From assembly GCA_002878375.1 (NCBI GenBank), contig NIRF01000009.1, positions 1 to 64,000 of the forward strand: 64,000 bases of DNA, written 5' to 3'. Below, piece after piece: positions 12,786 to 47,137 of this stretch. Source of the stretch: Dictyoglomus sp. NZ13-RE01. GTDB lineage: Bacteria > Dictyoglomota > Dictyoglomia > Dictyoglomales > Dictyoglomaceae. Positions within the stretch are counted from its first letter, which is position 1; each line of letters starts with the position of its first letter. The notes below the pieces were generated by a model, which searched no databases, was not told the origin of the DNA, and saw nothing but the letters and a program-made list of their open reading frames with translations. A program made the translations under genes and the position numbers.

Positions 12786-12788
12786 AAT

Positions 12789-15848: not shown

Positions 15849-15905
15849 GCTCAAAATAATGAAGGTTTTTGAAATAATTTTGAGGTGGACTCCTGGAGGT
15901 GGAGA

Positions 15906-17129: not shown

Positions 17130-18051
17130 AGGAAAAAGAGATTATATTACCGTTATAGGGGGAGCCAATGTTGATATTAAGGGGAGAAGTTTTGATGTAC
17201 TGAAGATGGGTACATCAAATCCAGGCGCCATTAATATCTCTCCAGGAGGGGTAGGAAGAAATATTGCCCATAATCTATCTTTGCTCAATATTCCAGTTAT
17301 ACTGCTAACTTGTATAGGGAAGGATCTTTTTGGAAGGATGGTATATGAGGAGACGGAAAAAGCCAAGGTAAATATGGAGCATGTGAAGGTATCAAAAGAA
17401 AGAACAGGGGTTTATCTTGCTATACTAAACGAAAAGGGAGAGATGGAGGTTGCACTTTCTGACATGAGAATCTTAGAAGAAGTTGACCTTTCATATATAG
17501 AAGAAAAAATGGATGTAATTAAAGGAAGTAAAATTGTAGTATTAGATACAAATTTAAATACCAATATTATTGAACTTGTTGTAAATCTTTGTAATGATAG
17601 AAATATTCCTGTTGTTGTAGATCCTGTATCTTATGAAAAAGCAAAAAAGATAAAAGGTTTAGTCCATAAAATTGATTATTTAATTCCTAATAAAAGGGAG
17701 CTTTTTTCAATTGTAAATAATGAAAGGGAGGATATAATAACCGCGGTGCATGAATTGAAAAGTATGGGAGCAAAAGAAGTAATTGTTAAATTAGGTGAAA
17801 AAGGTATTTTTGTCTCATCAGAAAATGAATTTATCCCTCCCATACCTTATAACGTGGTTGATGTAACGGGAGCAGGTGACTCTTTCACTGCTGGATTTAC
17901 CTATGGAGTTTATCATGGATATGCCATTAGGGAAGCTGTAATGTTTGGGCTTGCTGTATCCGCCCTTACTATATCCACTCCCTATTCTGTTTATCCAGAG
18001 CTTTCTGAGGAAAAAATTAAAAAATTTTTAGGAGAGGTATTTGAAAGATGA
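17119..18051 (+). CDS. psuK: PfkB-family carbohydrate kinase, probable pseudouridine kinase
   Basis: A 310-residue ribokinase-type kinase. The N-terminal substrate signature is SPGGVGRNIAHNLSLL (about 42-57) and the C-terminal ATP/catalytic motif is DVTGAGDSFTAGF (about 249-261) with the catalytic aspartate in GAGD. The immediate partner, overlapping by four bases, is psuG, which makes pseudouridine the likely substrate. The best start is TTG 17119, overlapping the upstream hydrolase gene by eleven bases; no ATG is available before the conserved ITVIGGANVD. The kinase phosphorylates pseudouridine to pseudouridine 5'-phosphate. Confidence 0.85.
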   Translation: MSFEGKRDYITVIGGANVDIKGRSFDVLKMGTSNPGAINISPGGVGRNIAHNLSLLNIPVILLTCIGKDLFGRMVYEETEKAKVNMEHVKVSKERTGVYLAILNEKGEMEVALSDMRILEEVDLSYIEEKMDVIKGSKIVVLDTNLNTNIIELVVNLCNDRNIPVVVDPVSYEKAKKIKGLVHKIDYLIPNKRELFSIVNNEREDIITAVHELKSMGAKEVIVKLGEKGIFVSSENEFIPPIPYNVVDVTGAGDSFTAGFTYGVYHGYAIREAVMFGLAVSALTISTPYSVYPELSEEKIKKFLGEVFER

Positions 18052-18971
18052 AGGAGTATATAGATTTTTCTGAGGAAGTTAAGACTGCATTAGAGGAGAA
18101 AAAGCCAATTGTTGCTTTGGAGTCTACCATAATAGCCCATGGTATGCCCTATCCTGAGAATATAGAGACTGCAAAAGAGGTTGAAAGAATAATTAGGGAG
18201 GAGGGAGCTGTCCCTGCAACCATTGCCATAATTAAGGGAAAAATAAAGATAGGATTAAAGGATGAGGACTTGGAGTTTATAGGCAGATCAAAGGATGTTA
18301 TTAAAGCAAGCAGAAGAGATATTCCTATAGCCATTGCAAAGAAGTTAAGTGCATCAACAACAGTATCTGCTACCATGATTTGTGCAGATCTTGCTAATAT
18401 AAAAATTTTTGTAACAGGAGGAATAGGTGGAGTTCATAGGGGAGCAGAAGAAACCTTTGATATCTCTGCAGACTTAGAAGAACTTTCAAGGACCAATATC
18501 GCAGTAGTATGCTCTGGGGCAAAATCCATATTAGACCTTCCTCGTACCTTAGAGTATTTGGAGACAAAAGGGGTGCCTGTCATTGGATTTAAAACCATTG
18601 AATTTCCTGCCTTTTATACAAGAAGTAGTGGACTTTTCTTAGATTATAGGGCGGAATCAGAGGAAGAGGTAGCAAGAATTTTAAAAACAAAGTGGGACTT
18701 GGGACTTTCTGGAGGTGTAGTTATTGCTAATCCTATCCCAGAAGAATACTCCTTAGATAAAAAATATATGGATGAAATTATTGAGAAAGCTATTAAGGAG
18801 GCAGAAAGAAGGGGAGTAAGAGGGAAGGCACTCACTCCATTCCTTCTGGATAAAATTAAGGAGCTAACAGGCGGAGAAAGCCTAAAAGCAAATATAGAAC
18901 TTGTTAAGAATAATGCAAAAGTTGGAGCAAGAATTTCAATAGAGTTTAATAGGTTGGTTTTAAGAGATTAG
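18048..18971 (+). CDS. psuG: Pseudouridine-5'-phosphate glycosidase
   Basis: A 307-residue enzyme that splits the C-C glycosidic bond of pseudouridine 5'-phosphate to uracil and ribose 5-phosphate. The family signature VALESTIIAHGMPYPEN is at about residues 23-39, with FVTGGIGGVHRGAEETFDIS (about 123-142) and GFKTIEFPAFYTRSSGL (about 184-200) in the active site. Its ATG overlaps the psuK stop (ATGA), so kinase and glycosidase are coupled. A strong bidirectional terminator follows. Confidence 0.95.
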   Translation: MKEYIDFSEEVKTALEEKKPIVALESTIIAHGMPYPENIETAKEVERIIREEGAVPATIAIIKGKIKIGLKDEDLEFIGRSKDVIKASRRDIPIAIAKKLSASTTVSATMICADLANIKIFVTGGIGGVHRGAEETFDISADLEELSRTNIAVVCSGAKSILDLPRTLEYLETKGVPVIGFKTIEFPAFYTRSSGLFLDYRAESEEEVARILKTKWDLGLSGGVVIANPIPEEYSLDKKYMDEIIEKAIKEAERRGVRGKALTPFLLDKIKELTGGESLKANIELVKNNAKVGARISIEFNRLVLRD

Positions 18972-18986
18972 TAAAATTAATGAAAA

Positions 18987-19015
18987 AACCTCCCCAAAAT
19001 TTTTTTGGGGAGGTT
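18987..19015. terminator. Bidirectional terminator between psuG and the convergent lyase gene
   Basis: AACCTCCCC and GGGGAGGTT form a 9-bp stem (extended by A-T pairs inward), with A runs on the left and T runs on the right, so it can terminate both the psuKG operon and the leftward lyase operon. Confidence 0.88.
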
Positions 19016-19022: not shown

Positions 19023-20180
19023 TTATGCACTCCTGAAAAGTTTTGTTAGTACGAATTCTTTATGGTTAAGGACTTCTGCACAGGTTAATCTTCCTGAAAT
19101 AACTTTCAGTAAGTAGTTCCAGAGTTTTTCTCCTGCTTCTTCCAAACTTTCTTCCAATGTCAAAACCTTACTTACGTCAACATCTATGTGTTCACTCATT
19201 GTTTTTACAGTTTTTGGATTTCCAGATATTTTAATTACAGGTATTATAAGATTTCCTACCACGTTTCCTTGTCCTGTTGGGAAGAGGTGTACAACAGCCC
19301 CGCCAGCTGCAAATAGAGTAATAGCCTCTGCTGCAGCAGAAGAGGTATTCATGAAGTAGAGCCCTTTACCTTTAGGAGTCTCTGCCATTTCCAGAACTCC
19401 ATCCACTTTTGCCTTTCCAATTTTTTGAATATTTCCTAAAGCCTTTTCCTCTATGGTACTTAATCCACCTTTAATATTTCCTTCTGTAGGCTGTGAACCT
19501 AAGAGATCAACCCCTTCTCTTTTTATAAATTCTTGATATTCATTGAATATTTCTAAAAATTTTGCTCTTTCTTTTTCGTCTTTAATCCTTTCTGCAATTA
19601 TATGTTCTCCTCCTGTGAGTTCCGATGTTTCCCCAAAGAGAACAGTTCCTCCGAGAGATACTAATTTTTCTACAACTTTTCCTACAGTAGGATTTGCTGC
19701 AAGACCTGAAGTTGTGTCTGATTCTCCACATTTTATACTCATTACAAGCTCTGAAATGTCTACCTCTTCTCTTTCTATTTGTGAGGCATCTTGAACTAAT
19801 TTCATGGCAACTCTTTCTGCTCTTTCAACAGTCTTTAACTCTCCATAACCTTCAATACCAAAAACTTCTACTGGTTTTCCAGTTTTAGCAATACCCTCTG
19901 CAATTTTATTTGCCCAATTCTCTTCTATTCCAATTACTATGGCGGAAGCTATATTGGGATTAGCTCCAGTCCCTATCATAGTACGGAAAAATAAGTCTAA
20001 ATCTCTTCCAAATTGAAGTCTTCCATAAGGATGTGTAACAGGAAGGGTTCCTGAGATTGCTTGGCATACCTTTTCTACAGCAGCATTAGATATGTCATCA
20101 ACAGAAATAACTGCAACATAATTTCTTACTCCCACTCTTCCATCTGGTCTTCTATACCCTTTAAAGGTTATTCTTTCCAT
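19023..20180 (-). CDS. UxaA/SuyB-family lyase, large subunit (candidate sulfolactate sulfo-lyase beta)
   Basis: A 385-residue member of the altronate/galactarate dehydratase superfamily lacking the fused N-terminal SAF domain, which is a separate gene upstream. Start is ATG 20180, eight bases after AGGAGG; the earlier GTG overlaps that ribosome binding site. It opens with FKGYRRPDGRVGVRN. The segments HPYGRLQFGRDLDLFFRT (about 46-63) and IKCGESDTTSGLAANPTVG (about 148-166) remind me more of SuyB, the large subunit of (2R)-3-sulfolactate sulfo-lyase, than of UxaA, which usually has CGGSD; this is from memory, not a search. SuyAB splits sulfolactate to pyruvate and sulfite. The length (about 385) also fits SuyB rather than the roughly 495-residue fused UxaA. 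A split altronate or galactarate dehydratase is the alternative. Confidence 0.68.
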   Translation of the reverse strand: MERITFKGYRRPDGRVGVRNYVAVISVDDISNAAVEKVCQAISGTLPVTHPYGRLQFGRDLDLFFRTMIGTGANPNIASAIVIGIEENWANKIAEGIAKTGKPVEVFGIEGYGELKTVERAERVAMKLVQDASQIEREEVDISELVMSIKCGESDTTSGLAANPTVGKVVEKLVSLGGTVLFGETSELTGGEHIIAERIKDEKERAKFLEIFNEYQEFIKREGVDLLGSQPTEGNIKGGLSTIEEKALGNIQKIGKAKVDGVLEMAETPKGKGLYFMNTSSAAAEAITLFAAGGAVVHLFPTGQGNVVGNLIIPVIKISGNPKTVKTMSEHIDVDVSKVLTLEESLEEAGEKLWNYLLKVISGRLTCAEVLNHKEFVLTKLFRSA

Positions 20181-20182
20181 CT

Positions 20183-20470
20183 TTACCACCTCCTACTCTT
20201 AATGTTATGTACATGTACATGCTGTCCCTTTTTAATATTTTCTTTGGCTTCGCCAATTATTTCTCCATACTTAACTACAAGTTCTCCCTTGTTAATATCC
20301 TGAAGAGCTATTTTGTGTCCCAATGGGATATTATCTAAAGCTTCCAATTCTATCCATTTTCCTGCCTCTAAGTAGTATCCTTTTACTTTTTCTCCTTTTT
20401 CTATATCTGCAACAGCAACTCCCACATTATCTTTTTCGTGATGAACAAGAAATTTATGCTCCATACTCAC
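20183..20470 (-). CDS. SAF-domain small subunit of the UxaA/SuyA-type lyase (candidate sulfolactate sulfo-lyase alpha)
   Basis: A 95-residue SAF-domain protein. It contains PLGHKIALQDINKGELVVKYG (about 49-69) and ends GQHVHVHNIKSRRW, both typical of UxaA N-terminal domains and SuyA. It starts at GTG 20470 (or ATG 20464) just after GGAGG, overlapping the regulator's stop, and ends two bases before the large-subunit ATG. Regulator, small subunit and large subunit therefore form one tight leftward operon. As a stand-alone small subunit it matches the SuyA arrangement, but split altronate dehydratases also have it. Confidence 0.7.
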   Translation of the reverse strand: MSMEHKFLVHHEKDNVGVAVADIEKGEKVKGYYLEAGKWIELEALDNIPLGHKIALQDINKGELVVKYGEIIGEAKENIKKGQHVHVHNIKSRRW

Positions 20471-21165
20471 TTAACCTCCTTCATGGAAATTTTTTCAAGG
20501 TAATTTTTTAATGCTACTTCTCGAGTGTTTCTAATATGGATTCTCATATATTCCTCTGCAAGATCTGGATTCCTTTCTTCAAGAGCCTTGATTATATTTT
20601 TGTGTTCTTTTAGAGATGCGTCCGCTCTACCAGGAATATTTATAGAGCTCGTCATTAGAAGCCTTATCTGACTTCTAATGTTTTCAAGTATTTTAAAAAG
20701 TCTCTTATTCCCACTTTTATCCCAAATAGTTTTGTGAAATTTCTCATCAATATCAGAATATTTTTTTAGTTTGTCCTGGGAGATATATTTTTCTCCCTCA
20801 TCAATAAGTTCTTTCAAGGTTTTTAATGTGTCTTCATCTATATTTTCACAAAGTTTTCTTACTGCAAAGCCTTCCAATACCTCTCTTAATTCATAAATCT
20901 CAATGGCATCTTCAATACTTATTTTGGCTACAAACATTCCTCTTCTTGGTATATTTTCTACTAAACCCTCTCTTTCCAATCTTACTAAAGCTTCTTTAAC
21001 TGGGGTTCTACTGATGTTCAATTCATTACATAGCATGTCTACAGTGAGTTTTGTGCCAGGTGGAAATTGACCTGAGATTATTGCCTCCCTGATGTTTTCA
21101 TAAGCTCTAATTGATATTAATGTTTCTTGAATTGGCTTCAAATTTTTTATTTTCCCTCCTTTCAT
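20467..21165 (-). CDS. GntR/FadR-family transcriptional regulator
   Basis: A regulator with an N-terminal winged helix (AYENIREAIISGQFPPG, then LNISRTPVKEALVRLEREGL) and a C-terminal all-helical FCD effector domain (about 90-225; DIDEKFHKTIW and SLKEHKNIIKALEERN carry probable metal/ligand residues). The start needs care. The promoter -10 lies at 21181-21176, so longer forms beginning at TTG 21204 are excluded. ATG 21165 would be almost leaderless, while TTG 21141 follows AAAGGAGGG at a long 12-13 base spacing. It is divergent from the catabolic operon and probably represses both promoters through the repeats at 21182-21222. The effector may be a pathway acid such as sulfolactate. Confidence 0.88.
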   Translation of the reverse strand: MKGGKIKNLKPIQETLISIRAYENIREAIISGQFPPGTKLTVDMLCNELNISRTPVKEALVRLEREGLVENIPRRGMFVAKISIEDAIEIYELREVLEGFAVRKLCENIDEDTLKTLKELIDEGEKYISQDKLKKYSDIDEKFHKTIWDKSGNKRLFKILENIRSQIRLLMTSSINIPGRADASLKEHKNIIKALEERNPDLAEEYMRIHIRNTREVALKNYLEKISMKEVK

Positions 21166-21175
21166 TTTTTCTTCA

Positions 21176-21204
21176 ATTATACATTTTAAATTTAAAATTT
21201 TCAA
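21176..21204 (-). promoter_or_regulatory. Leftward promoter for the regulator-lyase operon
   Basis: Leftward TTGAAA (21204-21199), exactly 17 bases, then TATAAT (21181-21176). The spacer holds one copy of the 13-base repeat CATTTTAAATTTA. Confidence 0.8.
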
Positions 21205-21222
21205 CTTGACATTTTAAATTTA
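21182..21222. promoter_or_regulatory. Two direct 13-bp repeats in the divergent promoters: probable FadR-type operator
   Basis: CATTTTAAATTTA occurs at 21182-21194 and again at 21210-21222, in the same orientation and 28 bases apart, which is close to three helical turns at about 9.3 bases per turn only loosely. One copy fills the spacer of the leftward promoter and the other fills the spacer of the rightward promoter. Each copy contains the near-palindrome TTTAAATTTA. Binding of one regulator would shut both operons. Confidence 0.6.
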
Positions 21223-21234
21223 GATTGATAGAAT
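21206..21234 (+). promoter_or_regulatory. Rightward promoter for the catabolic operon
   Basis: Perfect TTGACA (21206-21211), 17-base spacer, TAGAAT (21229-21234). The start of transcription near 21241 leaves a short leader containing AAGGAGAGGAG before ATG 21270. No further promoter or terminator is evident up to 31236, so eight genes probably share this transcript. Confidence 0.8.
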
Positions 21235-21269
21235 TTTTTACAAAAAGAAAGGTAAGGAGAGGAGTAATC

Positions 21270-22661
21270 ATGAGGTTAATAAATGTTTATAATCCATACG
21301 ATGGTAGTGTTGTGGATACCATTCCTGAATCGACCCTGGAGGATGTAGAGAAGGCAATAGAAAATGCAGAAAAAGGTAAAAAAATCATGGCGGAGATGAG
21401 CCTATACGAGAGATCCGAAATCCTCAGAAAAACTGCAGAAATCATTGAAAAGAATAAAGAAGATTTTGCTATAACCTTAGTGAAAGAAGTAGGAAAAACA
21501 ATCAAAGAGGCAAGAGTCGAGGTAAGAAGAGCGGTAGAAATTTTTAGATTAGCAAGTGAAGAAGCCAAAAGGATTCATGGCGAAACCCTACCTTTTGATA
21601 GTGTTCTTCATGCGGAAAAAAGAACTGGTTATTTTATGAGGGTTCCTGTAGGTATTATTGCCGCTATTACACCCTTTAATGTGCCTTTGGTTCTTGCTTG
21701 TCATAAAATAGCTCCTGCAATAGCAGGTGGAAATTCTGTAGTATTTAAGCCTTCCACAGCAACACCTCTTGCAGATATTAAATTAGCAAAGGCTTTAGTT
21801 GAGGCTGGACTTCCTCAAGAAGCAATTAATGTGGTCGTTGGTCCTGGAAGTACTGTAGGGGATGCAATTGTTAAGGATAATAGAATAAGAATGATTAGCT
21901 TTACTGGAAGTAAGGATGTGGGCTTAGAAATATTGAAAAAGGCGGGACTTAAAAAGGTTACTTTGGAGCTTGGTTCTAACTCCGCTCTTATCCTTTCTAA
22001 TAAGGGAGACGTTGATTCTGCAGTCTCTGCTACTGTTAAAGGAGGTTATGCAGTAGCTGGACAAGTTTGTATATCCGTACAAAGAGTACTGGTACATAAA
22101 GATAAATTTGATGAGTTTACCAATAAACTTATCGAAGCAGTCAAAAAAATCAAAATTGGCGATCCCATGAGAGAAGATACCGATATGGGTCCCATGATTA
22201 ATGAAGATTCTGCAAGAAGAGTTGAAGAATGGATAAAAGAAGCAGTGGATATGGGTGCAAAAGTAGTTGTAGGAGGAAAGAGAGAAAGAACATTATTTGA
22301 ACCTACAGTAGTAATAAATGTACCTCAGGAAGCAAAACTTTTCCAAAAGGAGGTTTTCGGACCTGTCGTATTAGTTAACTCCTTTAATTCTCTTTCTGAG
22401 GCTATTGAGATGGCAAATAACTCTGAATATGGACTTCAGGCAGGAATATTTACTAATGATATTGAAGAAGCTTTCTATGCCATCAAAAAATTGGAAGTGG
22501 GAGGAGTTATTGTCAATGATGCTCCTTCATATAGAGCGGATTTTATGCCTTATGGTGGTGTAAAGGGAAGTGGTTTAGGAAGAGAAGGAGTAAGGTATGC
22601 TTTAGAAGAAATGACTGAAATAAAAACTATATGTTTTAATCTTAAGGGAGGTGTCTTATGA
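21270..22661 (+). CDS. NAD(P)-dependent aldehyde dehydrogenase (lactaldehyde/sulfolactaldehyde dehydrogenase-like)
   Basis: A 463-residue ALDH-superfamily enzyme. The start is ATG 21270 after AAGGAGAGGAG; longer forms would begin inside the promoter. The general base is E233 in LELGSN and the catalytic thiol is C267 in [24 protein letters not shown] (about 134-148) and KPSTATP shape the cofactor site. By overall character it resembles the lactaldehyde/glyceraldehyde dehydrogenase branch (short, about 460 residues). In context it would oxidise the three-carbon aldehyde released by the next gene's transaldolase: sulfolactaldehyde to sulfolactate if the pathway handles sulfoquinovose, or lactaldehyde to lactate if it handles a 6-deoxysugar. 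Confidence 0.88.
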
Positions 22662-23302
22662 AAATCTTTCTTGATACAGCAAATATAAGCGAGATAAAGG
22701 ATGCATGGAATTCAGGAATTATAGATGGTGTAACTACAAATCCTACTCACATTTCTAAGGAAAATAAAAAATTTAGAGAATTAGTAGAAGAAATATGCTC
22801 AATTGTAAAGGGTCCTGTAAGTGTGGAAGCTGTAAGTCTTAATGCGGAAGATATTGTGAAGGAAGCAGAAGAGCTTTCAAAAATAGCTCCCAATATTGTT
22901 ATAAAGATTCCAGCTATAAAAGAAGGGATAAAAGCTGCAAAGATTCTCTCAGAAAAGGGGATAAAAACAAATATAACACTTGTCTTTTCACCATCACAGG
23001 CTCTTTTCGCTGCAAAAGCAGGAGCCACTTATGTAAGCCCCTTTGTGGGAAGATTGGATGATATTAGTGAAGATGGAATGAGTCTTGTAGCGGATATAAA
23101 GAAAATATATGCAAATTATGGATTTAAAACAGAAATAATTGTATCCGCAATTAGAAACCCCATGCATGTGGTAAAAGCTGCATTAATTGGGGCGGATGTG
23201 GCAACCATGAGATATGAGATATTGATGTCTCTATTTAAGCATCCTATGACTGACCTTGGTCTCGAGCAATTTTTAAAAGATTGGGAAAAAGTGCCTAAAT
23301 AA
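22658..23302 (+). CDS. Small transaldolase/fructose-6-phosphate aldolase-like protein
   Basis: A 214-residue class I aldolase of the TalC/FSA subfamily. [20 protein letters not shown] with VTTNPTHI is the N-terminal signature, and the Schiff-base lysine is K83 in VIKIP. Family members either transfer dihydroxyacetone between sugars or cleave fructose 6-phosphate. ATG overlaps the dehydrogenase stop (ATGA), so aldehyde producer and consumer are translationally coupled. In transaldolase-type sulfoglycolysis such an enzyme moves the C1-C3 unit of 6-deoxy-6-sulfofructose onto glyceraldehyde 3-phosphate, leaving sulfolactaldehyde. Housekeeping transaldolase is less likely in this cluster. Confidence 0.88.
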
Positions 23303-23304
23303 TT

Positions 23305-24524
23305 ATGTTTAAATATCATCTTCCTTATGGAGAAGGCTTTATAGAGGTTAATGTCCCAAAGGAAGCGGAAGTTTTGAAACCAAACTTCCAGGGGAAGGCT
23401 ATTTCTTTAGAAAAAGAGCTTAAGGAGTCTTTGGAAAAGCCTATTAATTTTCTATCTCTTTCTGAATTTCTTAGAGATAAAAGGGAGATTGCAATAAGTA
23501 TAGAGGATGATACAAGACCTATAGATAATAAAAAGATTCTTAGAGTGTTATTTGATTATCTTAGAGAGAGTGGTATTTATAATAAAAACGTAAAAATTAT
23601 TGTGGCTACAGGTCTTCATAAGGATAATACTAAGTATGATTTTTCTGATATAAGCTATGGATTTTCTGTTGAAGTAATTAAACATGATCCCGACAATAAT
23701 CTCTTTTTCTTTGAAGATGAAAATTTGGGACCTGTTGGGATTAATGAGAATTTTGTAAAAGCAGATGCAAGAATAATTATTGGAGATGTAATTCCACATC
23801 AAATTTTTGGTTTTTCAGGACCACCAAAAAGCATAATTCCAGGTCTTTGTGATAGAAAGACCATAAATTATACCCATAAGCAAGTTTTATATCATGATTT
23901 TAAAGCAGGAAGAAGAGAGAATATTGTTAGAAGATGGGTAGAAGAATTTTCAAGAAAGATTCCTGATATTTTTGCTATTAATATTGTTCAAAATATTAGA
24001 AAGGAAATTGTGGGGTAGCTTCGGGAGAGTTAATAGCATCCTTCCAAAAAGCCATAGAAGAGTCTGAAAAATTATATTGTGTGAAGATTGATAAGATCTA
24101 CGATGTAGTAATTACGTCTCCTGGAGGATACCCAATAGATCAGGATCTATATCAGACCCAAAAAGCTTTTACCCATGCAAGCTATGCTACAAAGGAAAAA
24201 GGCAAAATTATAGTTTTTTCACCTTGCACAAGAGGATGGGGTTCTGAAGACTTTATGAAGATTACAATGAATTTGAAAGATATAGACGAAACAATTAATA
24301 ATCTTAGAGAAAATTTTTCCGTTGGCAAACATAAGCTTCTATTTTTCTTAGAATTAGCTAAAAAATATAATCTTTATCTCTATAGTGACTTCGATTTTTC
24401 TAATTCTCCCTTAACAAAATTTATAAATATTATTTCGGAGAATGATTTATACAAAATCATTTCTACTGATGAAAGTTTGGCTATCTTGATGGGGGGGGGT
24501 GATTTTACAGTTCCAATAATTTAA
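23305..24524 (+). pseudogene. LarA-family (lactate racemase-like, DUF2088) gene with a one-base frameshift
   Basis: Two segments, 23305-24018 and about 24003-24524, encode the N- and C-terminal halves of one LarA-type protein. N-terminal landmarks are IEDDTRPI, IVATGLHKDN and GDVIPHQIFGFSGPPKSI, which include probable nickel-pincer-binding histidines and lysine. The C-terminal half has YDVVITSPGGYPIDQDLYQ. The frame switches within 24000-24018; adding one G to the run at 24012-24015 restores a continuous reading frame. The C-terminus crosses a run of nine G at 24491-24499. Either the gene is recently inactivated, the G run slips, or the sequence has an error. The intact protein could racemise a 2-hydroxy acid such as lactate or sulfolactate; LarA needs cofactor genes (larB, C, E) not seen here. 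Confidence 0.82.
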
Positions 24525-24594
24525 AAGAAAGGAGGGAGAGAAGGCATATTTTAGTTTCCAAAAACCTCAATTACTTTAAAGGGAGGTTAAAAGT

Positions 24595-25896
24595 ATGAAA
24601 AAATTAGTGTTAGGTTTACTTACTTTGTTTCTAATATCTTTAAGCTTTGTTTTAGCCCAAGGAGCTCCTTACAAAACAACAATAAATGTTCTTGTATGGG
24701 ATGATGCCCATACAAAAGCAGTAAAAACTCTAATTCCAGATTTTGAAAAAGCCACAGGTATAAAAGTAAACTTTGTTGCTCTTCCAACAAGATCAGTACT
24801 GGAAAAAGCGGCGATTGGAATTTCTATGGATAGAACCGATTACGACTTAGTCTCTATTGATGAGCCTTTTGTTCCTCAATTTGGAGAATTACTCCTCAAC
24901 TACAATCTCTGGCCACAAGGTAAGGTCTTTCCAAAGGTGGATTTAAAGGATATTGTAGAGGGTGCAGTAAATGCAAGTATGTGGGAAGGCTCTCCAAGAG
25001 GTCTTCCTATAAACGGTAATGTTTACGTTTACATCTATAGAAAAGATCTCTTTGATGATCCAAAGAATAAGGAAGAATTTAAGAAAGAATATGGCTATGA
25101 ACTAAATCCTCCAAATACTTTCAAAGAGCTTCTTGATGTTAGTAGATTTTTTGCAAAGAAACCAAATATGTATGGATTTGGACCATTTACTATAAAGGCA
25201 GAAGGAGTGACAGCTGAAGCAGTGTTTATTTTATCTTCTTTTGGTACTGATATACTAAAGGTGAGTGGTAAAAATGTTAAATTGGTTCTTGACAAGAAAA
25301 AGGCTGTGGATGCAATTAACTTCTATAAGCAACTATTAGAGACAGCTCCTCCAGGAAAACTCTCCTTTGGACATACTGAAAGAATTCAAGCCTTCAATAT
25401 GGGACAAATTGCAGTAATGTTCCAATGGCCTGCTTTAATTCCTAATCATGAAGATCCAAAACAGTCTCTTGTTGCAGGAAAAGTTGGCTATATGGTTCCT
25501 CCTGCAGGTCCTGCTCGAAGAGTAGCAGTTACAGGATGTTGGATTCTTGGAATTCCTAAGGCATCAAAGAATAAGCTTGCTGCAGCAGAATTTGCTTACT
25601 GGTGGGCATCAAAAGAGGCTGGAAGGAAACTAATAGAGGCAGGAATGTCTCCTGTAAGAAAGGATCTATTATCTGATCCAGAACTTCAAAAGACAAGAAA
25701 GTGGTATCAAGCAACTTTAGAAGCCTTTAAATATGGAATAAGCCGTCCAAGATTTAAGGATTATGCAAGAGTATCTGAAGTGATACAAGTTTATTGGACA
25801 AAAGGAATAAGTGGTGAGCTAACTCCAGAACAAGCAGTAGATGCTATGTATAACGAGATAGAAAAAATACTAAAGGAGGGGGGCTATGGTCAATAA
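24595..25896 (+). CDS. Extracellular sugar-binding protein of the catabolic cluster's ABC importer
   Basis: A 433-residue family 1 solute-binding protein with signal peptide (MKKLVLGLLTLFLISLSFVL, cleavage near AQG). A GGGAGGTT precedes the ATG. Features include NVLVWDDAHTKAVKTLIPDFE at the N-terminal lobe and AFNMGQIAVMFQWPALIP in the hinge region. It feeds the two permeases that follow. In this cluster the ligand is probably the glycoside or free sugar processed by the GH31 enzyme and isomerase, but binding-site residues cannot be read from sequence alone. Its last codons overlap the next gene by eleven bases. Confidence 0.9.
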   Translation: MKKLVLGLLTLFLISLSFVLAQGAPYKTTINVLVWDDAHTKAVKTLIPDFEKATGIKVNFVALPTRSVLEKAAIGISMDRTDYDLVSIDEPFVPQFGELLLNYNLWPQGKVFPKVDLKDIVEGAVNASMWEGSPRGLPINGNVYVYIYRKDLFDDPKNKEEFKKEYGYELNPPNTFKELLDVSRFFAKKPNMYGFGPFTIKAEGVTAEAVFILSSFGTDILKVSGKNVKLVLDKKKAVDAINFYKQLLETAPPGKLSFGHTERIQAFNMGQIAVMFQWPALIPNHEDPKQSLVAGKVGYMVPPAGPARRVAVTGCWILGIPKASKNKLAAAEFAYWWASKEAGRKLIEAGMSPVRKDLLSDPELQKTRKWYQATLEAFKYGISRPRFKDYARVSEVIQVYWTKGISGELTPEQAVDAMYNEIEKILKEGGYGQ

Positions 25897-26788
25897 GAAG
25901 ATAAGTCTCTGGCGGGGAAATCCCCGCCAGTTCCTAAATAATGTGCTGTTCCTTGGTCCTGCTATTATTTTCCTTATTTTAATGCTTCTATATCCTCTTG
26001 TCTATTCTTTCTACATGTCTTTACATAAATGGGAGCTTGCTCAAGTAACTCCCCCCTCTTTTATAGGTCTTAAAAACTATATTAATCTCTTTAATGATCC
26101 TTTGTTTTGGAACGCCTTAAAAATACAAGTTATATTTGTAGCTATAGCAATTCCCATTGAGCTTGTGATTGGTCTATTAGTAGCTCTTTTATTCCAAATA
26201 GAGTTTCCAGGCAATAGAACAATGAGAACTTTACTTCTTCTACCCTTCTTTATTCTTCCATCCCTATCAGGAACTACCTGGAGATTTATTCTCCATCCTA
26301 CATATGGTGTTTTTGGAGCTATATATAGGTTCTTAGGAAAAGAGCCTGTGGACTGGCTAAGCAATGGTACTCTCACTTTCATAGCTGTTATTCTTCAAGA
26401 TATTTGGAGAACCTGGCCCTTTATGTTTATCACCCTCTATGCAGCCCTTTCAAATTTTCCTCAGGAGTTAAAAGAGGCAGCTGCAATAGATGGTGCAAAC
26501 AAAGTACAAACCTTTTTTAAGGTAACCCTTCCATTATTGGTACCTTCAATTATAGTAGCCTGTTTCCTTAGATTGATTGATGCGTTACGTATATTCTCTG
26601 AAGTATATGTAATGACCGAAGGTGGTCCAGGAAATGCAACTACATTCTTATCAATCTTTATTTACAAAAATGCCTTTAGATTTTTCCAAATGGGATATGC
26701 GAATGCTGCAGGATATATTCTTACAATTATAGCTTTAACCATAAGCGCTATTGGACTTACAAGAATATTTACAAGAGAAATGTATTAA
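25886..26788 (+). CDS. Sugar ABC transporter permease, MalF type
   Basis: A 300-residue permease with six membrane spans and the EAA loop KEAAAIDGANKVQTFFKVTLP (about 194-214). The ATG at 25886 follows AAGGAGGGG. Its first codons are unusual: bases 25909-25930 form a perfect 10-bp hairpin (CTGGCGGGGA/TCCCCGCCAG) inside the reading frame, encoding the short cytoplasmic lead SLWRGNPRQ. In the window's other importers the hairpin lies between the binding-protein and permease genes, so here the permease gene may have extended over it. Confidence 0.92.
   Translation: MVNKKISLWRGNPRQFLNNVLFLGPAIIFLILMLLYPLVYSFYMSLHKWELAQVTPPSFIGLKNYINLFNDPLFWNALKIQVIFVAIAIPIELVIGLLVALLFQIEFPGNRTMRTLLLLPFFILPSLSGTTWRFILHPTYGVFGAIYRFLGKEPVDWLSNGTLTFIAVILQDIWRTWPFMFITLYAALSNFPQELKEAAAIDGANKVQTFFKVTLPLLVPSIIVACFLRLIDALRIFSEVYVMTEGGPGNATTFLSIFIYKNAFRFFQMGYANAAGYILTIIALTISAIGLTRIFTREMY
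25909..25930 (+). other. Hairpin inside the 5' end of the permease gene
   Basis: CTGGCGGGGA and TCCCCGCCAG are perfect inverted repeats two bases apart. The position just after the binding-protein stop matches the stem-loops at 2660, 34451 and 39847, and suggests the same role in protecting or attenuating the mRNA between binding protein and permease. Confidence 0.75.
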
Positions 26789-26800
26789 AGAGGTGATATT

Positions 26801-27625
26801 GTGCTTAGAAAGAGATTAAAATCACTAATATTCATTTTAGCCTTAATTATCCTTATTATTGAGCTTTTACCTGCCATATTACTTTTTCTGACAAGTATAA
26901 AGACAAACATGGCTATATGGACTTCTCCCACCCCTTTTCATCCTTTCACTCCTACCATTGAGCAGTATATAGGAGTATTTAAAGAAACTACATTTGTTAA
27001 AAACATACTCAATAGTACTTATATAGCTGTTTGGACTACCCTTCTTTCAGTATTAGGAGGGGCTTTGGCTTCTTATGCCCTTGCCAGATTCCCCATAAAA
27101 AGAAAAAAAGAAATAGCTATGGGAATAATATTCAGTAGAATGATTCCTCAAATTGCTCTTGCAGTACCTATATACTCAATGATGAGAACCTTGGGTCTTT
27201 TAGATACCTATACCGGTCTCATCTTAGCCCATACAACTTTTAGTCTTCCCTATGTAGTATGGCTTCTTCTTCCTTTCTTCCAACAAATACCTGTAGAGTA
27301 TGAAGAAGCAGCATTAATTGATGGTTGTAATAAGCTTCAGGTTTTTAGCAAGATATTTCTTCCTTTGGCATCCTCAGGAATTATTGTTGCTATGACCTTT
27401 TGCTTCTTAGGTTCCTGGAATGATTTTATATACACATTAGTGCTAAGTAATGTTAAAACTACAACAGCTCCTATGTTAGTAACAACATTTGTAGGTATGT
27501 ATGCACCTGAGGTTGGAAAGATGAGTGCTGCAGGGATATTAATTATTCTTCCTGTATTCTTAATCGCCCTATTTCTACAAAAATACATAATTATGGGGCT
27601 TTCGGGAGGAGGAATAAAGGGATAA
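26801..27625 (+). CDS. Sugar ABC transporter permease, MalG type
   Basis: A 274-residue permease starting at GTG 26801 after AAGAGGTGAT. The EAA loop is EEAALIDGCNKLQVFSKIFLP (about 167-187) and the C-terminus GLSGGGIKG is typical of MalG-type subunits. It forms the channel with the preceding permease; the ATPase must come from elsewhere. Two bases separate it from the GH31 gene. Confidence 0.92.
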   Translation: MLRKRLKSLIFILALIILIIELLPAILLFLTSIKTNMAIWTSPTPFHPFTPTIEQYIGVFKETTFVKNILNSTYIAVWTTLLSVLGGALASYALARFPIKRKKEIAMGIIFSRMIPQIALAVPIYSMMRTLGLLDTYTGLILAHTTFSLPYVVWLLLPFFQQIPVEYEEAALIDGCNKLQVFSKIFLPLASSGIIVAMTFCFLGSWNDFIYTLVLSNVKTTTAPMLVTTFVGMYAPEVGKMSAAGILIILPVFLIALFLQKYIIMGLSGGGIKG

Positions 27626-27627
27626 TT

Positions 27628-29901
27628 ATGGATAAAATAATTAAATTGATAGAATATAGTATAAGGGATAACATTTTTCATGGTATTTTAAATACTGAAA
27701 AAGGAAAGTTTTTAAACCTATATATCTCTCTATACAATAAAGAATTTTGGAGAATACAATTATCGGAGGAAAGTCCTAAAAATAATCCTGTTCATCTTTT
27801 TCCTTCCTCTTTTAATGTAAGGGAGGAAGGAGAATTTGTTTTGATGGAAGGGGAAGAAATTGATTTATATATATTAAAAAGCCCCTTCTTCTTTTTCTTT
27901 AAAAAAGGAGAAGAAGTTATATTATCCTTGGATAATCACAGAAATGTGGGGCTTTTACATTTAACTCCCCCATTAGCAAAAAATGAAATTGGCTTTTGTG
28001 GGACATTCTCATTAGATTCTGAGGATAGAATTTTTGGTTTAGGTGAGTTTTTTACCCCATGTGAAAGACATTCCCAAGAATTGGAAGTTTGGGTAAATGA
28101 TGCCTATGGAACTTTTACACAAAGAGCTTACAAGCCTCTTCCTTTCTCGTGGAGTACAAAAGGATATGGAATATTATTTAATACTAATTATAAGACTAAG
28201 CATTATATAGCGCATCCTGATAAAAATCTTTCAGGCTACTATTTTGAGGATTATTCTTCTATATTAGATATATTCTTATTCTTTGGTAAAGAACCTAAGG
28301 AGATAATTAAAAAGTACCATATCTTAACAGGAAAGCCTGAAATACCGCCTTTTTGGAGTTTTGGTTTGTGGATGTCAAGATGCTACTATTGGGACGAAAA
28401 AACTGTTTTAGAGGTAGCAGAAACTTTAAGGGAGAAGAATATTCCCTGTGATGTAATAAATTTAGATGGAAGAGCTTGGCTTAGGCATGGATACCAAACA
28501 GATTTCCAATGGGATTTGGAAAGATATCCCGATCCAAAAAGACTAATATCAAGGCTTAAAGAGCTGGGATTTAGGGTTTGTTTATGGGAAAATCCCTATA
28601 TTTCTGAAAAATCCCCTCTATTTTATGAGGCTGAAAAGAACGGTTTCCTACTTAAAGATTTAAATGGTCAGACGAAAAAAATAAAGTGGGTTCCTGAAGA
28701 GTTTCAAGGATTGCATAATCCACCATCCGCAGGAATTGTGGATCTTACAAATCCAAAAGCAAGAGAATGGTACAAGGATCTTCATAGACCCTTATTAAGA
28801 ATGGGAATAGATACTTTTAAGACAGATTTTGGAGAGGAAATTCCAGAAGATGTCATAGCTTATAATGGAATGAAAGGTGATGAACTGCATAATTATTATG
28901 CCTTTATTTATAACCAGGTAGTATATGAGGTTGTAAAGGAGGAAAAGAAGGAAGGATTAGTTTGGGGAAGATCAGGCTATATTGGCTCCCAGACAATTCC
29001 TGTGCAGTGGGCAGGAGATACTGAAAGCTCTTATGAGGGAATGTTTACAAGTTTAAGAGGAGGATTAAGCTATGGGCTTTCTGGTGGTAACTTGCTATGG
29101 GCTCATGATTTAGGGGGATTTTATGGTGCAAAGCCAGACAGCCAGCTTTATATAAGATGGTCTGAATTTGCCTTACTAAATCCATTAGTTAGAGCCCACG
29201 GAACAACTCCAAGAGAGCCCTGGGAGTATGGAAAAGAAGCAGAAAGAATATTCAAAAAGTTTACATTTTTAAGATACTCTCTTCTCCCATATATATATTC
29301 TTCTGCTGTTGAAGGAAAAGAAACATCCCTACCTGTTATGAGACATCTAATACTGGAATTTCCAAAGGATCCTATATCCGCCTATATAGAGGATGAATAC
29401 CTTTTAGGAGATGATATACTCATTGCTCCCATTTTTACAAATAAAAATGAAAGAAAAATTTACCTACCAAGATGTAGGTGGTATGATTTTTGGGATAAGG
29501 ATTATTATGATGGTGAAAAGGTTTTAGAGAAGAAGGTTCCCTTAAGCAGAATACCTATTTTTATTAAGGAAGGAGCAATTATTCCAAGATTTATAAAAAT
29601 TGGGAGAAATACAGAAGAGCTTGAAGAAAAGTATTTGGTGGAGATTTGGTTTCCAAACGAGAAAAAGGAGAAAACTTTCTATACTAAAAATAACACTTTC
29701 AAGATAAAGTATGAGATGTTCCCAGACTACATGGAGTTTGATATAGAAAGTCAATTAAAAACAGATTTCATAGTACATATATTAGGTTTTAAAAACATAA
29801 GAGAAATAGACCCTGGCATAGACTATAATTATACTCCAAATGGAATTCTCTTTACTATAAAAGAATTGCAAAAGATAAATATAAAGTTATACAAGGAATA
29901 G
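27628..29901 (+). CDS. Family GH31 alpha-glycosidase (YicI-like architecture)
   Basis: A 757-residue retaining alpha-glycosidase. The nucleophile is D400 in FKTDFGEE and the acid/base is D464 in WAGDTESS; both are intact. Overall order and length match alpha-xylosidase YicI. At the start of the active-site loop the protein reads NLDGRAWLRHG (278-288), whereas YicI as I remember it has FDCFWM, so R282 replaces a residue close to the sugar's C5/C6. That change could suit an anionic sugar such as a sulfonate or uronic acid. The RxxW signature of known YihQ-type sulfoquinovosidases is not present. No signal peptide, so it acts on imported glycosides. Confidence 0.88.
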   Translation: MDKIIKLIEYSIRDNIFHGILNTEKGKFLNLYISLYNKEFWRIQLSEESPKNNPVHLFPSSFNVREEGEFVLMEGEEIDLYILKSPFFFFFKKGEEVILSLDNHRNVGLLHLTPPLAKNEIGFCGTFSLDSEDRIFGLGEFFTPCERHSQELEVWVNDAYGTFTQRAYKPLPFSWSTKGYGILFNTNYKTKHYIAHPDKNLSGYYFEDYSSILDIFLFFGKEPKEIIKKYHILTGKPEIPPFWSFGLWMSRCYYWDEKTVLEVAETLREKNIPCDVINLDGRAWLRHGYQTDFQWDLERYPDPKRLISRLKELGFRVCLWENPYISEKSPLFYEAEKNGFLLKDLNGQTKKIKWVPEEFQGLHNPPSAGIVDLTNPKAREWYKDLHRPLLRMGIDTFKTDFGEEIPEDVIAYNGMKGDELHNYYAFIYNQVVYEVVKEEKKEGLVWGRSGYIGSQTIPVQWAGDTESSYEGMFTSLRGGLSYGLSGGNLLWAHDLGGFYGAKPDSQLYIRWSEFALLNPLVRAHGTTPREPWEYGKEAERIFKKFTFLRYSLLPYIYSSAVEGKETSLPVMRHLILEFPKDPISAYIEDEYLLGDDILIAPIFTNKNERKIYLPRCRWYDFWDKDYYDGEKVLEKKVPLSRIPIFIKEGAIIPRFIKIGRNTEELEEKYLVEIWFPNEKKEKTFYTKNNTFKIKYEMFPDYMEFDIESQLKTDFIVHILGFKNIREIDPGIDYNYTPNGILFTIKELQKINIKLYKE

Positions 29902-29916
29902 GAGGAAAAGTTAGAA

Positions 29917-31236
29917 ATGCTAAATGTAGGTTTTATAGGGGTTACCCAGAAAACCTTTAAATATAGAAAAGAAGAAGTCTTTAATGAATCTATTAATGTT
30001 TTAAAATCTTTTGCGGATAAAGTGCCCTTTAATTTAATATATAATGATACTCTTATTGATGACCCAAACTTCTTAGCAGATCTAATGAGGGATTGGGAAA
30101 CAAAAATAGATCTACTCATAGTACAAACTACTACTTTTTCCTCTGGAAATATAGGAGAAATAATTGCTAAAAGTAATATACCTGTAATATATTGGGCATT
30201 ACCAGAGCCTGAAATTGCAAATAATTTGAAATGGAACTCTTTATGTGCCCTAAACTTTTTTGTAAGTTTGCTAAAAAGGTTTAATCCAAATAAGAAATTT
30301 AAATGGGTCTATTCACCTATCCATGATGCCTCTGATCTTTTAAGGGAGCTAAAGATATATAAGGTTGTAAAAAGCTTGAAAAACTTGAGAATTGGGCACC
30401 TTGTGGGTACGGCACCAGGATTCTTAAACTTAGATGTCTCCGAAGATCTAATTAAGGAAAAATTAGGTACAGAGATAGTTAAATTTCCTAACTTAGATCT
30501 TTTAATGGAAACCATTAAAAATTTAGATGAGGAAGAGGTAAAGAAAGAGAAAGCGAATTTAATAGGGAAGATTGATATGAAGATAGAAGAGAAATGGCTT
30601 GATGAAGGTATAAAAATATCCTTAGCTTTAAGAAAAATAGCAAAGGATTATAAATTGGAAGCTATTGCTTCCCGTTGCTGGCCAGACTTTAAAGAGAAGT
30701 TATCAATCTTCCCATGTTTTAGTTTTGCTGTCCTAAATGAAGAAATTCCTGTTTCTTGTGAGGGGGACATACTAAGCTCTTTAGCCATGTATATGCTCAA
30801 AGAACTATCACAAACACCTACCACAGTATTGGACTTGGTCTATTATGATGAGAAAGGTATAGTACTTTGGCATTGTGGAAATACTCCTTTATCTCTTACG
30901 AAGTCCAAGGTCTATTTAGATTACCAATTTAATCATCCTGGGATGGGAACTGTTATTGATAGTAGATTTAAAGAAGGAGAAGTAACTATATTTTCCTTTA
31001 ATCAGGACATGAAAAATGCTTTGGTATTCTCTGGAAAAATCTCATATCCATTTGATACAAAATTTCAAGGAAGTTTTGCGTATGTAACTGATCTAACTGT
31101 TAAGCCTAAAGAACTATTTGATATTATACTGAGAGAGGGTTTTCCACATCACTTGGTACTTTCCTATGGAAATTATGTTGATTTGATAAAGGAAGTTTTG
31201 TATTGGTTAGAAATACCAGTTATAATATTAAATTAG
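29917..31236 (+). CDS. L-fucose/L-arabinose isomerase-like ketol-isomerase
   Basis: A 439-residue protein of the fucose/arabinose isomerase superfamily. The C-terminal catalytic half is best marked: ASRCWPDFKEKL, PCFSFAVLNE and IPVSCEGDILSSLAMYML (about 285-302), where the E and D are probable metal ligands, followed by LWHCGNTP. These enzymes interconvert aldoses and ketoses with Mn2+. It ends the eight-gene operon. I recall that the sulfoquinovose isomerase of the Bacillus transaldolase-type pathway belongs to this superfamily, but could not check this. A 6-deoxyhexose is an alternative substrate. A terminator follows at once. Confidence 0.85.
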   Translation: MLNVGFIGVTQKTFKYRKEEVFNESINVLKSFADKVPFNLIYNDTLIDDPNFLADLMRDWETKIDLLIVQTTTFSSGNIGEIIAKSNIPVIYWALPEPEIANNLKWNSLCALNFFVSLLKRFNPNKKFKWVYSPIHDASDLLRELKIYKVVKSLKNLRIGHLVGTAPGFLNLDVSEDLIKEKLGTEIVKFPNLDLLMETIKNLDEEEVKKEKANLIGKIDMKIEEKWLDEGIKISLALRKIAKDYKLEAIASRCWPDFKEKLSIFPCFSFAVLNEEIPVSCEGDILSSLAMYMLKELSQTPTTVLDLVYYDEKGIVLWHCGNTPLSLTKSKVYLDYQFNHPGMGTVIDSRFKEGEVTIFSFNQDMKNALVFSGKISYPFDTKFQGSFAYVTDLTVKPKELFDIILREGFPHHLVLSYGNYVDLIKEVLYWLEIPVIILN

Positions 31237-31260
31237 ATTGGGGGCATTTTTGCCCCCAAT
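31237..31260. terminator. Bidirectional terminator between convergent operons
   Basis: ATTGGGGGCA and TGCCCCCAAT form a perfect 10-bp stem with a 4-base T loop, directly after the isomerase stop and just before the GH4 stop on the other strand. Confidence 0.85.
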
Positions 31261-31263
31261 CCC

Positions 31264-32622
31264 CTATTTATAATGCTTGTTTGCCTTTTCATTCCAAGGC
31301 TGAGAAAGGATGGTTTCTACCAAGTTCTTTCCCTGTTCAAAACTCTTTGTTCTTGGATCGTCCATAGTCATTAGTATCAAGCTTGTTCTATCACCTTCTA
31401 AGAAGGCTTGCAAAATCCTTTCCATTCTTAGCCATCTTGGGATCAATACATAAAGCATTAATCTTGAAGGGATCTTTTCTATTTTCTCCCTTTCTATTCC
31501 ATTCTTATCTACATATACTGGTATCTCCACTATTACATCATCAGGTATGCCTGGGATTGCAGAATTATTTGGCACATTTATTACTAATCTTCTCCTATGG
31601 TTATTCACTATAGAATCTACAAAAGGTATAATCGATTCCATACTCTCTTCTAATGGTATTTCAGAAGAAACAGGCACTTCTGGATTTTCTGCTATTCTTC
31701 TCATAGTATTTAATCTTAACTTTAAGCCGTATAAATACATGGTCCAACCAATCTCAGAATCAGGTCCTCCTGCTGGAAACCATTTCCTTTTCTCATTAAG
31801 GTCTGTATGGAACCACCAAGGAGATACACTTCTTGGAGTATCCCCAATAGGAAATAGCCCGTATAGTTTATACATCTCTACACTGGCTGGAGAAAGTTGG
31901 GTATATTCCCATGGAGATATCATGTAATCATAAGAATTCCAGAGCTCAGGTGCCTTCTTTTCTATCCACTCATCTATTAAAGGATATGCATTTTCCCCTT
32001 TGTATAGGAACTTTGTAAGAAAGATGCAGTGATTGAATCCTGCTACCTGCTCTTCCACCTCATTTTTATCCAGTCCTAAAGCACTTATCAAATGGAACAA
32101 TTCTAAATATCCATGACAAAATCCTACCACTTTCAGACCAGTAGTTCTCAAAACTAAGTTTGTCCCCTCAAAAACTGGATTAGATACTTGCAAAAACCAA
32201 GCATTAGGACTTATCTTCTCCACATCCTTTGCTAAATCCATTATGAAATTTAGCTGTTCATAAGCGGCGAAACCACCATAGTAATCACTTACCCTATCTC
32301 CAACTCCTCTGTAATATCCTAAACTCTCTGCAATCTCTCTTTCCTTCTCCATAAAATGATAACCACCAACTTTTACCGTATTTATTACAAAATCCGCCCC
32401 ATCAATAGCCTTTTTTCTATCTGTAGTCTTTTCCAATTTCAAATTAACTCCAGATTCCTTTTTGAATCTTTCTGCCAGGTTATAAACAAGGTTTAGCCTA
32501 TCCTCATCAATATCCATAAAGGTAACAGTGCTTCCTGCAAGATCTTTAAAAACATTAAGGTCCTGCAAAAGTCTCATGGAAAAAGCAACACTTCCCGCTC
32601 CAATAATAGCAATCTTAACCAT
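31264..32622 (-). CDS. Family GH4 glycosidase (NAD+ and Mn2+-dependent)
   Basis: A 452-residue GH4 enzyme starting at ATG 32622, a few bases after GAGGAGG. The N-terminal Rossmann fold binds NAD+ (KIAIIGAGSVAFS). The metal and redox residues are in VSNPVFEGTN, GFCHGYLELF (C-H-G) and GFNHCIFL. GH4 enzymes hydrolyse alpha- or beta-glycosides by oxidation-elimination at C3; alpha-glucosidase, alpha-galactosidase and alpha-glucuronidase members are hard to separate by eye. It probably processes an oligosaccharide taken up by the Opp-type importer at 35951-41758. Its first codons and upstream region lie in the 87-bp repeat. Confidence 0.9.
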   Translation of the reverse strand: MVKIAIIGAGSVAFSMRLLQDLNVFKDLAGSTVTFMDIDEDRLNLVYNLAERFKKESGVNLKLEKTTDRKKAIDGADFVINTVKVGGYHFMEKEREIAESLGYYRGVGDRVSDYYGGFAAYEQLNFIMDLAKDVEKISPNAWFLQVSNPVFEGTNLVLRTTGLKVVGFCHGYLELFHLISALGLDKNEVEEQVAGFNHCIFLTKFLYKGENAYPLIDEWIEKKAPELWNSYDYMISPWEYTQLSPASVEMYKLYGLFPIGDTPRSVSPWWFHTDLNEKRKWFPAGGPDSEIGWTMYLYGLKLRLNTMRRIAENPEVPVSSEIPLEESMESIIPFVDSIVNNHRRRLVINVPNNSAIPGIPDDVIVEIPVYVDKNGIEREKIEKIPSRLMLYVLIPRWLRMERILQAFLEGDRTSLILMTMDDPRTKSFEQGKNLVETILSQPWNEKANKHYK

Positions 32623-32684
32623 TCTGATACCTCCTCTCACTATTTATTATATTTATGACACATTACAACACGATCATCTACAAA
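32598..32684. repeat. 87-bp direct repeat, copy A (oppF tail plus GH4 start)
   Basis: This copy matches 35909-35995 with only four differences. Read leftward it contains the last codons of an OppF-like gene (ending FVDDRVVMCHKYNK, stop), a ribosome binding site and the first codons of the GH4 gene. Here the OppF part is a remnant and the GH4 part is functional. Confidence 0.95.
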
Positions 32685-32693
32685 AATAACTGA

Positions 32694-33545: not shown

Positions 33546-33554
33546 AAGAACCCC

Positions 33555-34430: not shown

Positions 34431-34450
34431 TTTTACCTCCTCCTAAGAAA

Positions 34451-34479
34451 AAAGGGGGGAGGAGAATCCTCCCCCCTTT
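34451..34479 (-). terminator. Perfect 13-bp stem-loop between binding-protein and permease genes
   Basis: AAAGGGGGGAGGA and TCCTCCCCCCTTT are perfect inverted repeats around a 3-base loop. It lies just after the binding-protein stop and is the most stable of four such hairpins in this window; likely mRNA 3'-end protection with partial read-through. Confidence 0.85.
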
Positions 34480-34483
34480 AATT

Positions 34484-44823: not shown

Positions 44824-44905
44824 GTTGAAACCTCCTAAAAAAGTTTAAAACTTTTTCATTTTTATTATACAATATACTTACAGACTTTAATAGGGAGGAA
44901 GAAGT

Positions 44906-45670: not shown

Positions 45671-45698
45671 TCTTTATTATACTTCCAAGAGCAAAATT

Positions 45699-47093: not shown

Positions 47094-47117
47094 ATTTCTC
47101 CCTCTTTTTAATGTTAA

Positions 47118-47133
47118 TGTTTCACGTGAAACA
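47118..47133. other. parS centromere site (ParB/Spo0J binding)
   Basis: TGTTTCACGTGAAACA is a perfect 16-bp palindrome identical to the consensus chromosomal parS. It sits in the only gap between two leftward genes. parS sites recruit ParB for origin segregation and usually cluster near the replication origin. Confidence 0.88.
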
Positions 47134-47137
47134 ATTT

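Follow-up and report, generated by a model that had tools for sequence, protein, structure and literature searches.

Two kinds of described pathway bear on the locus considered here. The transaldolase pathway of sulfoglycolysis (sulfo-TAL), known from Priestia megaterium/aryabhattai and gut Firmicutes, combines an SftI-type isomerase, a class I transaldolase and a sulfolactaldehyde dehydrogenase without any kinase, and its known versions export sulfolactate or 2,3-dihydroxypropane-1-sulfonate (DHPS); in Thermotogae it has already been published with DHPS as the end product (PMC12890257). Sulfolactate degradation by SlcC/ComC and SuyAB, on the other hand, is found in Chromohalobacter and Paracoccus. 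The sulfolactaldehyde derived from sulfohexoses is the (S) form and SuyAB is described as specific for the (R) form, SlcC and ComC racemising between the two (PMC12421959, PMC12890257). The soil bacterium Paracoccus wurundjeri joins an Entner-Doudoroff entry for sulfofucose to SuyAB and also takes a sulfosugar to sulfite in one organism, by way of (S)-sulfolactaldehyde and sulfolactate; the same 2025 report remarks that it is unusual for one bacterium to combine a sulfosugar-cleaving pathway with the release of sulfite (PMC12421959). A DNA stretch of 64,000 nucleotides from the hot-spring bacterium Dictyoglomus sp. NZ13-RE01 (positions 1 to 64,000 of contig NIRF01000009.1, assembly GCA_002878375.1 of 1.93 Mb; G+C 33.8%), called the window below, contains between positions 18987 and 31262 what is very probably a self-contained regulon for the catabolism of a 6-sulfo sugar (sulfoquinovose or one of its glycosides being the most likely substrate), leading to pyruvate and sulfite within one cell. 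It resembles sulfo-TAL in isomerase, transaldolase, dehydrogenase and lack of a kinase, but it also contains SuyAB and LarA; compared with P. wurundjeri, the predicted entry is by transaldolase and the predicted racemisation by LarA. The pathway type is already known; as variants, both the combination and the predicted LarA step are new. Support at the level of sequence comes from gene content, synteny, the clade of SuyB, a residue change in the transaldolase, the fold of the isomerase and operators confined to the locus.

The regulon consists of two divergent operons with a terminator-like hairpin at each end. The minus-strand operon comprises gntR, suyA and suyB, and the plus-strand operon runs from the aldehyde dehydrogenase through transaldolase, larA, binding protein, two permeases and GH31 to the isomerase. 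Several neighbouring genes overlap by a few bases, as is typical of a shared transcript:

18987-19015, no strand assigned: terminator-like hairpin, suyB-side boundary of the regulon (consensus scan only)
19023-20189, minus: suyB, predicted large subunit of sulfolactate sulfo-lyase (Pfam GD_AH_second and GD_AH_C; SuyB clade)
20183-20470, minus: suyA, small SAF-domain subunit (PF08666), overlapping gntR and suyB
20467-21204, minus: GntR/FCD regulator (family profile matches; true start probably slightly inside the open reading frame, downstream of the promoter)
21225-22661, plus: aldehyde dehydrogenase, predicted sulfolactaldehyde dehydrogenase (true start probably ATG 21270)
22658-23302, plus: TalC/FSA-type transaldolase, predicted sulfofructose transaldolase (Ala164, Arg132, Arg166)
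23305-24018, plus: N-terminal part of larA (Lar_N), frame broken near its end
24081-24524, plus: C-terminal part of larA (LarA_C), in a different frame
24595-25896, plus: sugar-binding protein of an ATP-binding cassette (ABC) importer (Pfam; 52% identity to its counterpart in a Pseudothermotoga cluster, L042)
25886-26788, plus: ABC permease 1 (homologues in the relatives and in L042)
26801-27625, plus: ABC permease 2 (homologues in the relatives and in L042)
27628-29901, plus: GH31 alpha-glycosidase, YicI-like, with a DGRAW segment and without the YihQ sulfonate motif
29917-31236, plus: AraA/FucI-fold aldose-ketose isomerase, distant SftI homologue
31235-31262, no strand assigned: bidirectional terminator-like hairpin, isomerase-side boundary (consensus scan only)

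All the genes that the initial annotation had named are present where it placed them. Seven Dictyoglomaceae genomes were compared, three bearing the cluster and four lacking it; two of the relatives, G003 (1,855,560 bases) and G004 (2.0 Mb), are single-contig genomes. Gene order and orientation are kept in G003 (64-91% identity) and G001 (55-81%), the family members concerned belonging to two genera, and since the synteny is exact in both, one of which represents another genus, a chance assembly of the gene block is excluded. No close isomerase homologue was found in the four other genomes, nor did the TAL_FSA and LarA families give anything above cut-off there.

A consensus scan of the region places its two best-scoring promoter-like sites back to back, and one copy of the palindrome CATTTTAAATTTAAAATG lies between the hexamers of each:

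21176-21204, minus: promoter-like site for gntR-suyAB, TTGAAA-17-TATAAT, 11 of 12 consensus matches, containing operator copy 1
21182-21199, no strand assigned: putative operator copy 1, CATTTTAAATTTAAAATT
21206-21234, plus: promoter-like site for the importer/catabolic operon, TTGACA-17-TAGAAT, 11 of 12 consensus matches, containing operator copy 2
21210-21227, no strand assigned: putative operator copy 2, CATTTTAAATTTAGATTG

About 50 bases around the operator copies are identical or near-identical in three genomes while the flanks diverge. With up to two mismatches allowed, the pattern gives two sites in each cluster-bearing genome (n=3), all of them between gntR and the dehydrogenase gene, and no site in two cluster-free genomes. 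A reversed-pattern control returned similar counts in some genomes, so that operator counts alone mean little and the evidence lies in the shared location. The GntR protein is the candidate binder of these copies, and it may repress both operons by occupying one operator in each of the two back-to-back promoters.

In the proposed scheme, whose substrates and step directions we infer from the gene set, the ABC importer would take up the sulfosugar substrate, GH31 would free the sugar from its glycoside and the isomerase would convert it to 6-sulfofructose. The transaldolase would then transfer the non-sulfonated C3 half to glyceraldehyde-3-phosphate, yielding fructose-6-phosphate and (S)-sulfolactaldehyde, a transfer that would make a kinase unnecessary; the divergent unit indeed holds no sugar kinase, as had been noted initially, the PfkB-like gene at 17119-18051 preceding the terminator at 18987-19015. 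The aldehyde dehydrogenase would oxidise (S)-sulfolactaldehyde to (S)-sulfolactate, LarA would racemise this to the (R) form, and SuyAB would convert (R)-sulfolactate to pyruvate by eliminating sulfite.

The lyase was identified by its position in a tree and by the neighbours of its homologues. The suyB product, a protein of 388 amino acids that contains both the CGESDTTSG and the HPYGRLQFG segments picked out earlier, is 56-61% identical to proteins adjoining SlcC, ComC or TauE genes. In a 44-row tree it falls within a SuyB clade of 31 rows (support 100/100). A branch of 1.25 parts this clade from other UxaA-family proteins, with UxaA and GarD of E. coli placed across the root from it. Members of the clade, to which SlcC/ComC-linked SuyB also belongs, adjoin SlcC, ComC, TauE, SuyZ, HpsN or TRAP genes; the rows include no purified SuyB, and the function of the clade is read from gene context together with published work on SuyAB. 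A scan with SuyB returned 80 loci, and in 79 of them a SuyA homologue adjoins SuyB. The large subunit is firmly in the sulfo-lyase clade, and the pair, with its separate SAF subunit, is predicted to be an (R)-sulfolactate sulfo-lyase. On the basis of the tree we reject an altronate or galactarate dehydratase function (UxaA/GarD) for the large subunit; a grouping with those dehydratases was what the initial annotation had set in advance as its refutation. A divergent haloarchaeal row (L167), beside ComC and a sulfate-exporter-type gene, forms a long branch just outside the clade and is not to be over-read. The haloarchaeal SuyB-like proteins L035, L166 and L167 show 34-42% identity, one of them lying beside ComC and an exporter and the others beside LUD-domain or acid-sugar kinase genes.

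The transaldolase is the single TAL_FSA gene of its genome, and the family is present in 3/3 cluster-bearing Dictyoglomaceae and absent from the four others. This restriction indicates that the enzyme belongs to the cluster pathway, and one copy per cluster-bearing genome with none elsewhere in the family rules out a housekeeping transaldolase. In overall sequence it is closest to ordinary transaldolases (298 bits to T. maritima 1vpx versus 179 bits to BmSF-TAL). At position 164, however, Ala occurs in all 8 aligned SuyAB-linked transaldolases and in BmSF-TAL, while Ser occupies this position in 27/27 transaldolases of other genomes and in 4 of solved structure. On the transaldolase tree the change from Ser to Ala needs at least three separate events (bootstrap support is not fully settled): BmSF-TAL, Pseudothermotoga L042 and Anaerolineae L083 form a 100/100 clade, and the transaldolases of Dictyoglomaceae, Thermogemmatispora and Verrucomicrobia branch apart from it. 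In BmSF-TAL the sulfonate is oriented by a W-A-R motif (PMC11659671), which our own reading of the alignment assigns to the columns of Arg132, Ala164 and Arg166, so that the Ala and the Arg match and the Trp is replaced by Arg132. The window enzyme, with R-A-R in place of W-A-R and on a separate lineage from the known sulfo-TAL enzymes, is best described as convergent with BmSF-TAL and not as a member of its clade.

The sole NCBIfam match of the isomerase is sulfoquinovose isomerase SftI (NF048012), with 181 bits where the cut-off is 700, and its SuyAB-linked homologues in Chloroflexota reach 234-311 bits to the same model. Direct sequence search of the PDB gave no match, and relatives were obtained by fold comparison: an AlphaFold 2 model built from 19 sequences (mean predicted local distance difference test, pLDDT, 93.3) superposes on L-arabinose isomerase with a template modelling (TM) score of 0.86 and on L-fucose isomerase with 0.80, and E282, D306 and H319 are invariant across the 19 sequences. 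The GH31 glycosidase, which the initial annotation listed without a subtype, is present but proves to be YicI-like and not a YihQ-type sulfoquinovosidase. Its closest solved enzyme is the alpha-xylosidase YicI (417 bits), and it shares the conserved catalytic Asp pair with YicI and YihQ but carries the signature residues of neither. At the five positions of the YihQ sulfonate-binding set, which we take to be Q262/Q288/R301/W304/Y508, it has Y, D, G, T and F, and as none of these residues is present a YihQ orthologue is ruled out. YicI Cys307-Phe308 are also missing, DGRAW replacing D-C307-F308-W; since residues 307 and 308 of YicI presumably face the C5/C6 side of the sugar, the Arg of DGRAW is a candidate sulfonate ligand. 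The segment also occurs in the GH31 of Chloroflexota L066, whose gene overlaps suyA, and not in L062.

Among the 80 SuyB loci, isomerase homologues were found in 10 and transaldolases in 6. The clearest relative is the Pseudothermotoga cluster L042, with binding protein, permeases, transaldolase, SuyA, SuyB, dehydrogenase (54% identity to that of the window), GH31 and isomerase. Its transaldolase is nearest to BmSF-TAL (228 bits). The GH31 of this cluster scores 883 bits as a YihQ-type sulfoquinovosidase, well above the cut-off of 553, and 714 bits against E. coli YihQ itself, and this true YihQ fixes the substrate class for the related enzyme set. Similar gene sets occur in Thermogemmatispora L062 and in Chloroflexota L066 and L083. 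The window locus is not unique, since Pseudothermotoga, Thermogemmatispora and other hot-habitat loci have comparable clusters. These comparisons also bear on the identity of the sugar. A different sulfosugar, such as sulfofucose or a sulfosugar of archaeal glycoproteins, would enter the same downstream chemistry as a variant of the sulfoquinovose scheme, and the YicI-like GH31 without a YihQ motif, whose DGRAW is common to the SuyA-adjacent GH31 of L066, would fit it; sulfofucose, reported from an extremophile archaeon, also yields this (S)-sulfolactaldehyde (PMC12421959). The SftI family of the isomerase and the YihQ-bearing Pseudothermotoga cluster point instead to sulfoquinovose, and we regard another sulfosugar as rather unlikely.

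The step between (S)- and (R)-sulfolactate is where the locus departs from the SlcC/ComC-SuyAB systems: no ComC-family gene was found in 7/7 Dictyoglomaceae genomes (SlcC-type dehydrogenases were not searched for), and a larA gene stands in its place. As noted initially, a LarA-type protein is encoded, with both Lar_N and LarA_C, but in the window it is split between two frames. The frame changes near 24,010-24,020 at a GGGG run, whereas larA is one intact open reading frame in both relatives (L022, L023); both halves are still 63-64% identical to the intact relative and the catalytic His/Lys segments are present in the window and the relatives, so the break may be either an assembly error or a recent loss. 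A larC cofactor gene is present but uninformative, because every Dictyoglomaceae genome searched has one, whether or not it carries the cluster. LarA lies near SuyAB in 10 of the 80 SuyB loci, and SlcC or ComC accompanies it in 1 of these 10 compared with 44 of the 70 LarA-free loci (Fisher p=0.002, or 0.011 on full-flank loci, the loci not being independent samples). In L041 and L074, LarA overlaps the suyB stop. This near exclusion leads us to predict, with somewhat better than even confidence, that LarA is a nickel-dependent sulfolactate racemase. The domains Lar_N and LarA_C are common to the cluster protein and the malate racemases LarAH5/LarAH6, and five tested SuyAB-linked LarA proteins pass the LarAH5 cut-off. 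The intact D. turgidum-like LarA scores 293 bits against LarAH6, short of the 500 that the malate racemase model requires, and 218 bits against lactate racemase. Malate is sulfolactate with a carboxylate in place of the sulfonate, and a LarA nearer to malate than to lactate racemases fits a substrate with a second negative charge. No LarA-type sulfolactate racemase was found in the open-access literature, and sulfolactate goes unmentioned in the LarA superfamily literature examined. Taken jointly, it seems probable that a nickel-pincer LarA racemises (S)- to (R)-sulfolactate without SlcC/ComC, which would round off a sulfosugar-to-sulfite route within single thermophile cells, and that a Ser to Ala change has repeatedly made sulfofructose transaldolases. 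As separate observations, L042 has neither LarA nor SlcC/ComC near SuyAB, and in Moorella sulfitireducens and M. stamsii (L043, L045) none of SlcC, ComC and LarA was recognised in the neighbourhood of the SuyAB pair.

Among NCBIfam models the aldehyde dehydrogenase matches lactaldehyde dehydrogenase best (559 bits, under the cut-off of 650), which together with the membership of LarA in the lactate racemase superfamily and the GH31 without a YihQ motif would suit a non-sulfonated 6-deoxysugar, handled by isomerase and transaldolase to lactaldehyde and then lactate, with LarA as a lactate racemase and the SuyAB-like pair in some other role. Lactate, however, offers no group to eliminate, so that SuyAB would be left without a role; SuyB lies firmly within the sulfo-lyase clade, LarA is closer to malate racemases and Ala164 tracks SuyAB, all of which makes this route quite improbable. 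Hexuronate or aldarate breakdown by a split altronate/galactarate-type dehydratase, favoured by the Pfam families that SuyB shares with UxaA/GarD and by a weak TIGR03248 match (173 of 731 bits), is already largely refuted by the tree that parts SuyB from both, leaves no place for the transaldolase or the lactaldehyde-type dehydrogenase, and is hardly credible.

Several observations nevertheless weigh against the sulfoquinovose-to-sulfite scheme. The position of the transaldolase on the tree rules out membership in the BmSF-TAL clade, and column 132, Trp in BmSF-TAL, L042 and L083, is Arg in the window; the isomerase is far under the SftI cut-off, the GH31 lacks the YihQ residues and larA is frameshifted. 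Additionally, no sulfite reductase (NIR_SIR) domain was found in the genome and TauE gave no match there (the SuyZ-type exporter family was not searched for), so that sulfite would have to exit by another route. The core of the initial proposal, transaldolase-type sulfoglycolysis feeding SuyAB, is supported, although with a transaldolase outside the SF-TAL clade and a racemase gene that is broken in this assembly.

If correct, the scheme places one closed sulfosugar-to-sulfite regulon in thermophilic anaerobes, one of them apparently the culturable D. turgidum, and the mineralisation of sulfosugars by single cells would then reach into hot anoxic habitats. It would also give the LarA superfamily a new substrate and provide an anaerobe with (R)-sulfolactate without the two NAD-dependent dehydrogenases SlcC and ComC. 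Ala164 would serve as a one-residue marker for ordinary-looking sulfofructose transaldolases, and the YicI-like GH31 group would be flagged as candidate sulfosugar glycosidases.

The window contains no Rfam element. At 43708-50632, proteins of 371 and 464 amino acids without Pfam match adjoin one of 1164 amino acids that matches only at its C terminus, to an HD domain. At 11496-15848 the specificity subunit of a type I restriction-modification system (Pfam) precedes an apparent restriction subunit, and the product of 15885-17129 has a choloylglycine-hydrolase-like N-terminal domain followed by a beta-barrel-looking C-terminal part. On the isomerase side, a convergent operon on the minus strand (31264-35755) encodes a GH4 glycosidase with its own ABC importer; it was left out of the regulon because it lies past the terminator and was not found in the L022 stretch. 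On the suyB side, 17119-18971 holds the PfkB-family-like kinase gene followed by one that by eye resembles pseudouridine-5'-phosphate glycosidase (PsuG), a pair that probably serves pseudouridine breakdown.

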